Source: Pseudomonadota bacterium (GTDB lineage Bacteria; Pseudomonadota; Alphaproteobacteria; Acetobacterales; Acetobacteraceae). Taken from it: 34,600 bases of DNA. Location of the stretch: contig JABBNW010000018.1 in NCBI GenBank assembly GCA_019352115.1, positions 1-34,600 of the forward strand, in the 5' to 3' direction. This document shows positions 16,888 through 20,452 of the stretch, piece by piece; the stretch's first letter is position 1, and each line of letters begins with the position of its first letter. The translations under genes and the position numbers were made by a program. The notes under the pieces are model-generated. The model ran no database searches. It had not been told where the DNA came from and saw nothing but the letters and a program-made list of their open reading frames with translations.

Positions 16888-17424
16888 CTACGGGCGCACG
16901 GAGGCGCCGGGCTCGTGCGGTTTCGTTTCGGCCTCGTCGGCCTGCCCCGACCGCCCCGCCCCGCCCAGGAGCACGAGCGCGGCAACGCCGCAGACGATCG
17001 CCGCGTCGCCGATGTTGAACACGTACCACGACCAGCCGAACGCATGGGCACGGATGAAATCGACCACCGCCCCGTAGCGCAGCCGGTCGGTCACGTTGCC
17101 CAATGCGCCGCCGGCGATCGCACCGAGCGCGATTGCGGACGAAACCCGATCCGTCCGCCGCAACCAGACGCCGAGCGCGGCCACGATTACGAGCGCCAGC
17201 GTGGCCAGGATGGCGACGCTCCATCCGCTGCGGCCGGTGAGCAGGCCGAACGTGACGCCATGGTTCCAGACCATCGTGAGGTCGAGCACCGGCAGCACCC
17301 GTACGTCACCCAGGCGCGGCAGGTCGAGCCCGTGCAGGATCCAATACTTGCTGCCCTGATCGGCCGCGTAGACGACCAGACCGATCAAGGCGCCGAGCGA
17401 GGTGAGGCGGTTGCGCCGGGTCAC
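16888..17424 (-). CDS. lspA: Lipoprotein signal peptidase (signal peptidase II)
   Basis: LspA is the inner-membrane aspartyl protease that removes signal peptides from diacylated prolipoproteins. The 178-residue product has four membrane segments and the family motifs YAADQGSKYW (19-28), WNHGVTFG, GNVTDRLRYGAVVDF and FNIGDAAI. Asp122 (VVDF) and Asp140 (NIGD) are the expected catalytic pair. The C-terminal tail is hydrophilic. Start is a GTG at 17424 that overlaps the ileS stop (GTGA), so lspA is co-translated with ileS, a pairing common in Proteobacteria. Any attenuation of the ileS message would also affect lspA. Confidence 0.95.
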   Translation of the reverse strand: MTRRNRLTSLGALIGLVVYAADQGSKYWILHGLDLPRLGDVRVLPVLDLTMVWNHGVTFGLLTGRSGWSVAILATLALVIVAALGVWLRRTDRVSSAIALGAIAGGALGNVTDRLRYGAVVDFIRAHAFGWSWYVFNIGDAAIVCGVAALVLLGGAGRSGQADEAETKPHEPGASVRP

Positions 17425-20282
17425 GCTTCGGTCGCGCGGCAGACGAGGCCGGAGTCCACTGCGTCGGCGCAGCGGAGGCAGAGGGTCGGGTGGGCTTCGG
17501 TTTGGCCGACTTCGGGAAGCACGCGCCAGCAGCGGGCGCATTTGGTTCCGGGGGCAATTTCGATCCCGACCGGCCGGAGGTCCGACGGCTCGTCAGGAGA
17601 GGCGCCGGAGGGACGCGGCACGATCACTGCTGCGTCGTCGTAGATATTCAGCCGCGAGACGATCGCCACCTCGGCCCATTCTTCCGGGGTCAGAAGGCCT
17701 GCCTCATCGGCGCTAAGCGGCAATTGCACCGTTGCCTGCAAAGACGATCCGATAAGCCCATCCTTGCGCTTCACTTCAAGATGGGCGGTGACGCTGCGGC
17801 GGATGTCGCGGATGCGCGCCCACCTCTCCGCCAGCGCGTCATCCCGCCACGCCTCCGGCAACTCCGGGAACAATTGCAGATGCACGCTGTCCGCATCCCC
17901 GAACCGCGCGCACCACGCCTCCTCCGCCGTGAAGCACAGCACCGGCGCGAGCCAGGTGCACAAGGCCCGGTGCAGCACGTCCAGCACCGTCCGCGCCGCA
18001 CGCCGGCGCAGGCTGTCCGGGCGGTCGCAATACAGCGCGTCCTTGCGGATATCGAAATAGAATGCCGACAGATCGGTCGCGCAGAAATGATGCAGTTCCG
18101 GATAGACCCCGGTCCAGTCGTAGCTCACGACCGCGGCGCGCACCCGCGCATCGAGCTCGGTCAGCCGGTGCAGCACCCAGCGCTCCAGCTCCGGCATGTC
18201 CGCCACAGCCACCCGCTCCGCCTCGGAGAACCCATCGAGCGCCCCCAGCAGCCAGCGCAACGTGTTGCGCAGGCGGCGGTAAAGCTCCGCCTCCTGCTTC
18301 AGGATTTCCGCCCCGATGCGCAGATCCTCGGTGGTGTCGGACATCATTACCCAGAGCCGCAGGATATCGGCGCCGTACTGCTTCTCCACCGCCTCCGGCG
18401 CCACCACGTTGCCGAGCGATTTCGACATCTTCCGGCCCTGCTCGTCGGTGACGAAGCCGTGCGTCAGGATCGCCTGGAACGGCGCCCGCCCGCGGGTGCC
18501 GATCGCCTCCAGCAGGGACGAATGGAACCAGCCGCGATGCTGGTCCGATCCTTCCAGATAAAGATCGGCCGGCCACGGCAGCCCGCGCGCCTCCAACGTG
18601 AACGCATGGGTCGATCCTGATTCGAACCAGACATCGACGATGTCGCGCACCTGCTCATACGCGTCCGGATCGCGGTGCGGACCCAGGAAGCGCGAAGGCG
18701 GGGAGGCATACCACGCATCCGCGCCCTCGGCGGTGAACGCGGCAACGATGCGCGCGACCACATCCGGATCGCGCAACGGCTCCCCGCTGCGGCGATCGAC
18801 GAACACCGGGATCGGCACGCCCCAGGCACGCTGGCGGCTGATGCACCAGTCCGGCCGCGCCGCAACCATCGATCCGATGCGGTTGCGCCCCGCATCCGGC
18901 ACGAACACGGTTTCATCCAGCGCCGCCAACGCCCGGTCGCGGATGTGCTCGGGTCCGTCCATGCGGATGAACCATTGCGGTGTCGCACGAAAAATCAGCG
19001 GCGCGCGCGACCGCCAGGAATGCGGATACGAATGCACCAGCGACCCGCGCGCCAGCAGCCCGCCGGCGGCGATCAGCGCGGCACAGACCGGCTCGGCGGC
19101 CTTGTAGACATGCACGCCGGCGAAGCTCGGCACCCAGGCATTGAAGGTGCCGTCTGGGCCGACGGTATCGGGGATTTCGATCCCCTGCGCACGGCCGAGC
19201 TGAAAATCCTCCTCGCCGTGGCCGGGCGCGATATGGACGAAGCCGGTGCCCGCCTCGGTGGTGACGAAATCGCCGAACAGCACCGGCACGTCGTGGTCGT
19301 AGCCGTGCCCGCGCAGCGGATGCGCGCACACCACCCCGGCAAGTTCCGCGCCTGCCAGCACGCGCAGGACGTGGTGGGTGGCGATCTTCGTTGCAGCCAG
19401 GGAACCGGGCAGCAGGTGCAGCGCGACCAGCAGCCGATCGCCGGCGCGCACCAGTGAGCCTTCCGAAACGGTATCGACATGGATCAACGCGTAGTCGATC
19501 GCCTCCCCGGCCGCGATGGCGCGGTTGCCTGGCATGGTCCAGGGCGTGGTGGTCCAGATCACGATCGCCGCGTCGGCCAGGTCCGCCGCCGGCGCCGTCA
19601 CGATCGGAAAGCGCACCCAGATCGTCGTGCTGGTGTGGTCGTGGTATTCGATCTCGGCTTCCGCCAGCGCGGTCTTCTCCACCGGTGACCACATCACCGG
19701 GCGCAGGCCGCGGTACAGCGCGCCGTTCAGCAGGAACTTGCAGATCTCCCCGGCGATCGCGGCTTCGGACGGGTGGTCCATGGTGGCGTAACGATCGGCC
19801 CAGGCGCCTTCGACGCCGAGGCGGCGGAACTCGTCCTTCTGCACCGACATCCAGTGCGCGGCGTAGGCGCGGCACTCGGCGCGGAAATCGAGCAGCGGGA
19901 CGGCGTCCTTGTCGCGGCCCTTGGCGCGGTACTCCTCCTCGATCTTCCATTCGATCGGCAGACCGTGGCAGTCCCAGCCGGGGATGTACAGCGCGTCGTA
20001 GCCGGCCATCTGGCGGGTACGGTTGATGACGTCCTTCAGGATCTTGTTGAGCGCGGTACCGATATGGATGTTGCCGTTCGCGTACGGCGGGCCGTCGTGC
20101 AGGATGAACAATGCCCGCCCGGCCGCCTGCGCACGCATCCGCCCCCACAAATCCATCGCCTCCCACCGGGCGAGCAGCGCGGGCTCGCGCTTCGGCAGGT
20201 CGGCGCGCATGGGGAAGGACGTGCGCGGCAGGAACACGGTGTCGCGGTAGTCGCGCGGCGCGGGATCGGTGGGGCTGTCCAT
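17421..20282 (-). CDS. ileS: Isoleucyl-tRNA synthetase
   Basis: IleS charges tRNA-Ile with isoleucine and edits misactivated valine. The 953-residue product shows the class I HIGH motif as HIGT (73-76, in YANGNIHIGT), a variant usual in alphaproteobacterial IleS. The connective-peptide editing domain contains the VIWTTTPWTMPGNRAI block, GWDCHGLPIEWK lies near the active site, and GRKMSKSLGN carries KMSKS. A C-terminal zinc knuckle has Cys915, Cys918, Cys935 and Cys938. The ATG at 20282 gives a normal N-terminus. It is coupled to lspA. A leader of about 134 bases with its own promoter, a short Ile-containing ORF and hairpins precedes it. Confidence 0.97.
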   Translation of the reverse strand: MDSPTDPAPRDYRDTVFLPRTSFPMRADLPKREPALLARWEAMDLWGRMRAQAAGRALFILHDGPPYANGNIHIGTALNKILKDVINRTRQMAGYDALYIPGWDCHGLPIEWKIEEEYRAKGRDKDAVPLLDFRAECRAYAAHWMSVQKDEFRRLGVEGAWADRYATMDHPSEAAIAGEICKFLLNGALYRGLRPVMWSPVEKTALAEAEIEYHDHTSTTIWVRFPIVTAPAADLADAAIVIWTTTPWTMPGNRAIAAGEAIDYALIHVDTVSEGSLVRAGDRLLVALHLLPGSLAATKIATHHVLRVLAGAELAGVVCAHPLRGHGYDHDVPVLFGDFVTTEAGTGFVHIAPGHGEEDFQLGRAQGIEIPDTVGPDGTFNAWVPSFAGVHVYKAAEPVCAALIAAGGLLARGSLVHSYPHSWRSRAPLIFRATPQWFIRMDGPEHIRDRALAALDETVFVPDAGRNRIGSMVAARPDWCISRQRAWGVPIPVFVDRRSGEPLRDPDVVARIVAAFTAEGADAWYASPPSRFLGPHRDPDAYEQVRDIVDVWFESGSTHAFTLEARGLPWPADLYLEGSDQHRGWFHSSLLEAIGTRGRAPFQAILTHGFVTDEQGRKMSKSLGNVVAPEAVEKQYGADILRLWVMMSDTTEDLRIGAEILKQEAELYRRLRNTLRWLLGALDGFSEAERVAVADMPELERWVLHRLTELDARVRAAVVSYDWTGVYPELHHFCATDLSAFYFDIRKDALYCDRPDSLRRRAARTVLDVLHRALCTWLAPVLCFTAEEAWCARFGDADSVHLQLFPELPEAWRDDALAERWARIRDIRRSVTAHLEVKRKDGLIGSSLQATVQLPLSADEAGLLTPEEWAEVAIVSRLNIYDDAAVIVPRPSGASPDEPSDLRPVGIEIAPGTKCARCWRVLPEVGQTEAHPTLCLRCADAVDSGLVCRATEA

Positions 20283-20317: not shown

Positions 20318-20345
20318 AAGGAGAAGGCCCGCGCGCGTGCGGGCC
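20318..20345 (-). terminator. Candidate attenuator terminator in the ileS leader
   Basis: Reading the minus strand, GGCCCGC (20345-20339) pairs with GCGGGCC (20332-20326) around a six-base loop, giving seven G-C pairs. It is followed at once by TTCTCCTT (20325-20318), a U-rich tail in the transcript. It sits between the 16-codon leader ORF and the ileS ATG. The short tail makes strength uncertain. Confidence 0.45.
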
Positions 20346-20356
20346 GGCGGACGGTC

Positions 20357-20380
20357 CCGGCGCTCTCAGCGAGAGGCCGG
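20357..20380 (-). other. Candidate pause hairpin overlapping the ileS leader ORF stop
   Basis: CCGGC-CTCTC (plus a one-base bulge) pairs with GAGAG-GCCGG around a three-base loop, ten pairs in all. The 5' arm covers the last sense codons of the leader ORF and the loop lies next to its TGA. A ribosome stalled on the Ile codons two to three codons earlier would disrupt this stem, freeing its 3' arm to pair with CCGGC at 20347-20343. Confidence 0.45.
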
Positions 20381-20416
20381 GCGGATAATTCGCGCCTGGC
20401 GCGGGCCCGTGCTCAT
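20366..20416 (-). CDS. Candidate leader peptide of ileS (16 residues, tandem Ile codons)
   Basis: An ATG at 20416 opens a 16-codon frame, MSTGPRQARIIRPASR, ending TGA at 20366. The ATG is eight bases after a good -10 (CATTAG), so the transcript would begin at or next to the AUG, making the peptide leaderless. Codons 10-11 are ATT ATC, both Ile; ATT is unusual in a genome this GC-rich. The stop lies inside the 20357-20380 hairpin. The position, composition and nested hairpins match amino-acid attenuation leaders such as that of E. coli pheST. Two Ile codons are few, so this is a candidate. Confidence 0.5.
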   Translation of the reverse strand: MSTGPRQARIIRPASR

Positions 20417-20423
20417 GGGCGGA

Positions 20424-20452
20424 CTAATGGAAGCGCCCGGCGGCGGGGTCAA
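20424..20452 (-). promoter_or_regulatory. Predicted ileS-lspA promoter
   Basis: On the minus strand TTGACC (20452-20447) and CATTAG (20429-20424) are separated by exactly 17 bases. The predicted start is 20416-20417, on the AUG of the leader ORF, and 134 bases before the ileS ATG. This is among the best promoter matches in the window. Confidence 0.55.

Follow-up and report, generated by a model that had tools for sequence, protein, structure and literature searches.

A putatively leaderless leader peptide upstream of ileS in an Acetobacteraceae genome and its probable place in an alphaproteobacterial family of branched-chain amino-acid leaders

In the 34,600-nucleotide stretch of an Acetobacteraceae genome analyzed here (the window), a short open reading frame (ORF) with its own promoter lies between arfB (upstream) and ileS-lspA, the gene identities being taken from NCBIfam. 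The initial annotation had proposed that this ORF is an isoleucine-responsive attenuator, and the locus thus raises the question of whether the leader senses charged tRNA-Ile and, if so, through which step ileS would respond. We consider it likely that this leaderless ORF encodes a leader peptide through which charged tRNA-Ile is sensed, and that the element is one of a family of branched-chain amino-acid leaders in Alphaproteobacteria; across the class, the Ile, Leu, and Val leaders are very probably a family of amino-acid-starvation switches. The analysis supports the ORF, its frame, the match between codon and gene, the spacing, the covariation of the hairpin, and a long-range helix in the leaders of genes encoding a small ACT-domain protein (ACT genes).

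In the proposed mechanism, transcription would start on the AUG of the short ORF and a ribosome would translate toward a single rare control codon, placed after CGA and 5 nt ahead of a hairpin of ~10 bp (P2). This codon is AUU in Ile leaders, CUU at leuA, and GUU in part of the ACT leaders. When charged tRNA is scarce, the ribosome would halt with its A site over the control codon and its P site over CGA. It would thereby cover a leader segment that is otherwise paired downstream in a long-range helix (P1); P1 would open, and its opening would be expected to raise expression of the downstream gene. At ACT genes, P1 would sequester the ribosome-binding site, making the output translational. At ileS, more synthetase would be expected when tRNA-Ile is uncharged, with the output step proposed by analogy.

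The leader upstream of ileS and its conservation

The layout of the leader and of the genes that follow it is given below, all features lying on the minus strand.

20452-20447, minus: -35 box TTGACC, read from the sequence; TTGAC-like boxes occupy the same place in relatives
20429-20424, minus: -10 box CATTAG, separated from the -35 box by a 17-nt spacer; CATAGT/CATAT in relatives
20416-20366, minus: putatively leaderless leader ORF MSTGPRQARIIRPASR*, 16 codons, with its stop TGA (20368-20366) at the hairpin loop
20392-20387, minus: CGA AUU, codons 9 and 10, the invariant Arg codon (CGA, 20392-20390) followed by the Ile control codon (ATT, 20389-20387)
20381-20356, minus: hairpin P2, 11 pairs (6+5, one bulged C), starting exactly 5 nt 3' of the control codon; covariation over 27 sequences; the 5' arm is the ORF end and the loop holds the start of the stop codon
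20407-20399, minus: predicted 5' arm of long-range helix P1, GGCCCGCGC, leader codons 4-6; pairing probability 0.90 in free RNA
20334-20326, minus: 3' arm of P1, GCGCGGGCC, predicted by folding and common to the terminator-like hairpin
20345-20326, minus: terminator-like 7-bp all-GC hairpin with a weak U tail at 20325-20316 (TTCTCCTTCG; 5 U in 8), not conserved in relatives
20315-20300, minus: candidate hairpin P3, CCGGC-UGCCGC-GCCGG, just 5' of the ileS ribosome-binding site, known from sequence only
20292-20288, minus: probable ileS Shine-Dalgarno sequence AGAGA, as judged from its letters
17421..20282, minus: ileS, isoleucyl-tRNA synthetase (TIGR00392, 797 bits)
16888..17541, minus: lspA, signal peptidase II (TIGR00077; ORF as listed)

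The promoter TTGACC-17-CATTAG and the 16-codon ORF described in the initial annotation are both present and conserved in relatives; 7 nt separate the end of the -10 box from the ATG at 20416, which is consistent with initiation on the AUG. Its tandem Ile codons (ATT ATC) are indeed codons 10-11, but only the codon directly after CGA is conserved, the next one varying among relatives (AGC, ATC, ACC, ACG, etc.). The first hairpin is likewise real and conserved, although its bounds are 20381-20356 with 11 pairs rather than 20380-20357 with 10. Hairpins at the place of P3 appear to recur in relatives with differing sequence.

The ileS loci used for comparison were gathered by protein similarity alone, so that the leader played no part in choosing them. 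CGAATT (CGAATG once) was found upstream in 47 of the 80 named loci, and a CC-initiated hairpin core begins exactly 5 nt past the codon in 45 of the 80; the element-bearing loci include those of Neoroseomonas, Falsiroseomonas, Caldovatus, Roseococcus, Belnapia, Limobrevibacterium, Inquilinus limosus, and Azospirillum oryzae. Each of the 45 has an in-frame ATG without an intervening stop, whereas such an open ATG occurs in only 5 and 4 cases for the two remaining frames. The element is absent altogether from about 33 of the 80 relatives, including acetic acid bacteria such as Gluconobacter; it has been lost at many Acetobacteraceae ileS loci, and one congener (L049) carries ATG instead of ATT together with a damaged hairpin. 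The survey of relatives for an ileS gene lacking the ORF or the Ile codon is thus mixed but favorable, and with the element kept at 45 of the 80 loci, the claim of a leaderless, Ile-responsive leader peptide upstream of ileS is supported. Conservation beyond chance, across order and class, holds for the ORF, for CGA-ATT, and for the first hairpin. Sequence is free before CGA and past AUU, the constant part being ...R-I-x-x-P-(A/V)-x(-x)-stop, and the control codon is ATT in 88 of 89 non-redundant ileS leaders. Three CGA-ATT elements (L164, L165, L166) stand 5' of diverged ileS-like frames in one genus, with IleS matches of only 1e-17 to 1e-19; these frames may represent an additional synthetase gene or a decayed copy.

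Folding of the window leader by itself was not better than that of shuffles (z -0.24), so single-sequence folding is no evidence here, and conservation is. RNAalifold returned no consensus for the full MAFFT alignment of 62 ileS leaders because their downstream part is unalignable. Over 27 ileS leaders, however, P2 scored a covariation of 0.289 vs. 0.178 ± 0.019 for shuffled controls and at most 0.231 for slid pairings, with 90% of cells paired and 18 double changes. Most P2 hairpins have 9-11 pairs, with loops of 3-6 nt. The gap between the control codon and P2 is 5 nt in 130 of 144 leaders; nearly all the others carry an extra leading C and are apparent 4-nt cases. The class-wide set came from a model including this spacing, unlike the 45 named ileS loci. 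CGA, the control codon, and these 5 nt add up to 11 nt, without meaningful variation across ileS, ACT, and leuA leaders.

Where an ATG lies 3-10 nt past a sigma-70-like promoter, it is in frame with the control codon in all 117 non-redundant cases (82 ileS, 22 ACT, and 13 leuA). The modal distance of 6-7 nt from the -10 box to the ATG leaves no room for a Shine-Dalgarno sequence, and transcription should therefore start on the AUG; from this promoter position we infer that the leaders are leaderless. Both fixed codons are uncommon in the ileS genes themselves, where AUU accounts for 6.9% of all Ile codons and CGA for 1.1% of all Arg codons, yet both are nearly invariant in the leaders. In a modeling study of attenuators, sensitivity is predicted to depend on which synonymous codon is used (PMC1183508). 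At six loci (L159, L175, L178, L187, L199, L202), the leader ORF does not end at the hairpin; it totals 34-39 codons and stops close to where the ACT (or ileS) gene begins, an arrangement suggestive of translational coupling.

Related leaders before ACT, ilvA, and leuA genes

A covariance model built from the 27 ileS leaders (R1) found the element in 83 of the 289 alphaproteobacterial genomes scanned; among 299 genomes sampled across the phylum, its matches fell in Alphaproteobacteria only. By automatic classification, 41 of the 90 matches analyzed lie before ileS and 30 before a small ACT-domain gene; inspection of the remainder revealed more ACT genes as well as three genes for threonine dehydratase (ilvA). 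Two R1 matches before leuA carry CTT where the others carry ATT. With redundant cases removed, the control codon is ATT in 3 of 3 ilvA and 30 of 32 ACT leaders and CTT in 14 of 14 leuA leaders, where the targeted CGACTT search pre-selects CTT and the unbiased part consists of the two leuA cases from the AUU-trained R1 and 15 well-formed CGACTT hits before leuA. Many other CGACTT hits were chance matches inside genes, with neither hairpin nor leader ORF. Most hits of an initial, loosely defined search for other control codons fell within the ileS coding region; it was discarded and replaced by this pattern and a codon-masked model (R2), which revealed no further gene class among its class-wide hits.

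The control codon thus matches the amino acid to which the downstream gene relates, and this strongly supports the sensing of charged tRNA; read from sequence, the match is the strongest single argument that the leaders read tRNA charging. The leuA leader peptides are rich in further Leu codons (e.g., MTYTNRLLGLLRLTSPVL and MNYANELLGLLRLTGPAL), and GUU is the control codon in some ACT leaders. Two ACT leaders, L203 (MITKTSQRRLTDPAFQADRAVACVRVTGPVP...) and L200, hold a Leu and then a Val module in one ORF. In L200 (G227) and in L203/L251 (G357), R-L-T-(D/G)-P-A is followed 16-17 codons on by R-V-T-G-P-V, each with its own hairpin, an arrangement that suggests combined sensing of Leu and Val.

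The genome of the window itself contains a second copy of the element, with the leader MTIRTMGKRISRPAA*, before an ACT gene (L115, contig C345:15796-15843). The solitary ACT-domain protein of ~100 residues (ADPGxLPRVLExFAKRGLVP...) is the second main target, at this locus and 31 further ACT loci. It matched no Pfam or NCBIfam family above cut-off, and its profile weakly resembles those of acetolactate synthase small subunits (E about 0.02). At L148, L149, L153, and L216, two separate CGA-ATT elements ~200 nt apart precede a single ACT or ilvA gene.

Long-range pairing and output at ACT genes and at ileS

In folding of the ACT leaders, the long helix P1 joins the ORF region to the ribosome-binding site of the downstream gene, as in L162 (CGAUUCCCGACGACGCGA with GUCGUUCG...UCGGGAAUCG) and in the copy from the window's own genome (L115); within these leaders, CGAA pairs with UUCG. 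Compared with dinucleotide shuffles, P1 of the ACT leaders has a mean z of -2.28. When each leader was paired with the downstream parts of other leaders as well as its own, the own partner was usually among the best for the ACT class (mean rank 0.09, p 1.9e-8, n=28). Masking the footprint of a ribosome with AUU in the A site changed the cost of opening the ACT start region by -3.5 kcal/mol on average, an effect that fades as the masked ribosome moves onward. In these models, the ACT leaders point to the anatomy of translational attenuation, in which a stalled ribosome would expose the start.

The same tests gave little at ileS. There, the start region changed by a mean of 0.43 kcal/mol under stall (0.1 in the window), the P1 duplex was near background relative to dinucleotide shuffles (mean z -0.38), and the partner-swap test gave weak support within the first 45 nt (p 0.007) and none when the whole stretch was used (p 0.1). 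P1 of the window (20407-20399 paired to 20334-20326) has a probability of 0.90 in free RNA and excludes the terminator-like hairpin, which forms with a probability of 0.98-1.0 when a ribosome is at AUU and 0.01 without it. By analogy, starvation is expected to open P1 and raise ileS. Counting against the favored sensor reading are the near-constant cost of opening the ileS start, the weak backing for P1 there, the AUG of L049, the roughly 33 relatives without the element, and the few elements found before genes unconnected with Ile.

These results bear directly on classical transcription attenuation, the switch that the initial annotation had drawn for this locus: a stall would open the first hairpin, an antiterminator GCCGG:CCGGC would form, and the U-tailed hairpin 20345-20326 would fail to terminate, so that ileS is transcribed. 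Transcription attenuation is known for E. coli pheST and for many amino-acid operons, and the window does contain the seven-pair all-GC hairpin with its tail of 5 U in 8. The Caulobacter ilvIH operon was reported to be attenuated through a leader CDS (PMC4117421). The hairpin with its U tail is, however, missing from three congeneric genomes (L060/L005, L049/L006, L007), and the antiterminator has a pairing probability of at most 0.06 in every state tested. Folding also gives the opposite sign, since a stall favors the terminator hairpin; if terminating, this hairpin would lower ileS on starvation, which is hard to reconcile with physiology, and the switch as first drawn is not supported. Terminator-like sites number 5 in 5 kb of the window vs. 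2.0 ± 1.6 in shuffles. Intrinsic terminators were likewise rejected as a general output: U-tailed hairpins occur in 34 of 92 ileS leaders (37%) vs. 62 of 276 shuffles (22%), only mildly above background and at scattered positions. We therefore regard transcription attenuation at this locus as unlikely.

The other explanations are less probable still. In one, the lineage studied here has an ileS leader that is in decay or has lost its regulatory role, with the ACT and leuA leaders as the active members; the losses at Acetobacteraceae ileS loci, the degenerate L049 copy, and the lack of a visible expression platform in the ileS set speak for it, but 88 of 89 ileS leaders keep AUU, spacing, and hairpin over very distant lineages, which needs ongoing selection and makes decay very unlikely. 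Arrest peptides rich in Arg and Pro exist, and every class of the leader keeps the codons for R and P along with the I/L/V position, as would be expected if a conserved R-I-x-x-P peptide stalled the ribosome independently of tRNA charging. We judge such nascent-peptide arrest to be highly improbable: the Pro codon falls in a hairpin arm, its neighbor changes among A, V, and I along with stem pairing, one ORF ends right after the Ile codon with the hairpin kept (L085, MEMARRARI*), and arrest alone leaves unexplained why codon identity tracks the amino acid of the gene. The least probable reading takes CGAAUU and the hairpin as an RNA element that binds a protein or ligand and is open in one frame by chance. 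Conservation of nucleotides and not of amino acids alone (CGA, AUU), as well as the CGAA-UUCG pairing of ACT leaders, would fit it; the perfect frame linkage to a leaderless ATG, the swap of AUU to CUU before leuA, the two-module Leu/Val ORFs, and the lack of any matching Rfam family argue against it.

A possible hairpin gate and relation to known systems

For the tRNA sensor that we favor, the fixed 11 nt suggest how a single codon might suffice. Stem-loops at 11-12 nt from the first P-site base block binding of tRNA to the A site (Bao et al., PMC7282821), and a follow-up study stresses stems of about 11-12 pairs (PMC8861025). P2 lies 11 nt from the first P-site base, the geometry of an A-site-occluding stem-loop, although with its 9-11 pairs it is slightly shorter than the stated pausing optimum. 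We tentatively propose, as a possibility that we rate below even, that P2 sits at the mRNA entry channel and gates the A site while the control codon is there, the leader being a hairpin-gated sensor of tRNA at a single codon. P2, perhaps aided by the rare CGA in the P site, would then make decoding of the control codon rate-limiting, and one codon could replace the run needed elsewhere. If this holds, the module could be re-addressed from Ile to Leu or Val by one codon and chained within one ORF. Similar stem-loops promote pausing and frameshifting in dnaX and HIV (PMC7282821, PMC8861025), with which P2 shares the 11-nt distance from the first P-site base, a stem of 9-11 pairs, and a short loop; unlike these, the leaders have no slippery sequence, and the A-site codon is the sensing codon.

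The leaders resemble attenuators of the trp/his/leu/phe type (E. coli trpL, pheST) in having a short ORF with cognate codons, a first hairpin over the ORF end, and amino-acid or synthetase genes downstream. They differ in having one obligatory codon instead of a run (though Leu leaders contain several), a leaderless start, and a fixed distance from codon to hairpin; no conserved terminator or antiterminator was found in the leaders analyzed, the U-tailed hairpin being weak in the window and absent from congeners and the antiterminator failing to form under a stall in folding. The reference for attenuators of this type is Vitreschak et al. 2004, as cited in PMC10117765. The closest precedent for the start is trpL of Sinorhizobium meliloti (peTrpL/rnTrpL), a leader ORF, likewise alphaproteobacterial, that is transcribed from its AUG onward and whose product is a leaderless leader peptide (PMC7298713, PMC10117765); it differs in its Trp codons, in being a transcription attenuator, and in belonging to another sequence family. 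For the output, the ACT leaders appear in our models to act like those of ermC-type translational attenuation, in which a stall in the leader frees the ribosome-binding site. Such a sequestered site freed by a stall was seen in folding for the ACT class, not for ileS, and whereas ermC responds to an antibiotic, these leaders would respond to the charging of the tRNA that reads one particular codon.

In Caulobacter crescentus, a translated leader CDS before ileS (CCNA_03934) is mentioned as a control only, and the text of that report, as far as available, states no codon, hairpin, or mechanism for it (PMC4117421). This CDS is possibly the same element. Searches with the curated Rfam models, T-box included, gave no match at gathering score under either threshold, the best chance match having an E of 0.81. 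Leaderless leader peptides (trpL) and, from Caulobacter, an ileS leader CDS are thus already known, and in the literature searched, which leaves out much subscription literature, no description of an Ile/Leu/Val leader family was found.

Taken as an alphaproteobacterial family of leader sensors for branched-chain amino acids that spans the class and has no Rfam model, these elements would link ileS, leuA, ilvA, and the small ACT-domain gene into one regulon-like set, and their fixed geometry together with the natural codon swap offers a directly testable model of a ribosome sensing one uncharged tRNA. The leaders also suggest that genuine attenuation could rest on one codon, a design missed by attenuator searches that seek codon runs.

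Leaders of the Ile type also occur in some lineages before genes with no obvious link to isoleucine, namely a P-loop kinase-like gene (L190, L191, L193, L195, L205) and an NTF2-like gene (L208, L211). Between the CGA-CTT leader and leuA, 100-250 nt past the element, there is a second conserved stretch, CTCT(G/C)CGACTTANNNNCGGTC (L207, L226, L243, L248, L254-L257). It is readable as another short ORF with R-L-x-x-G and may serve as an additional leader for leuA or repeat the first control site at the RNA level.
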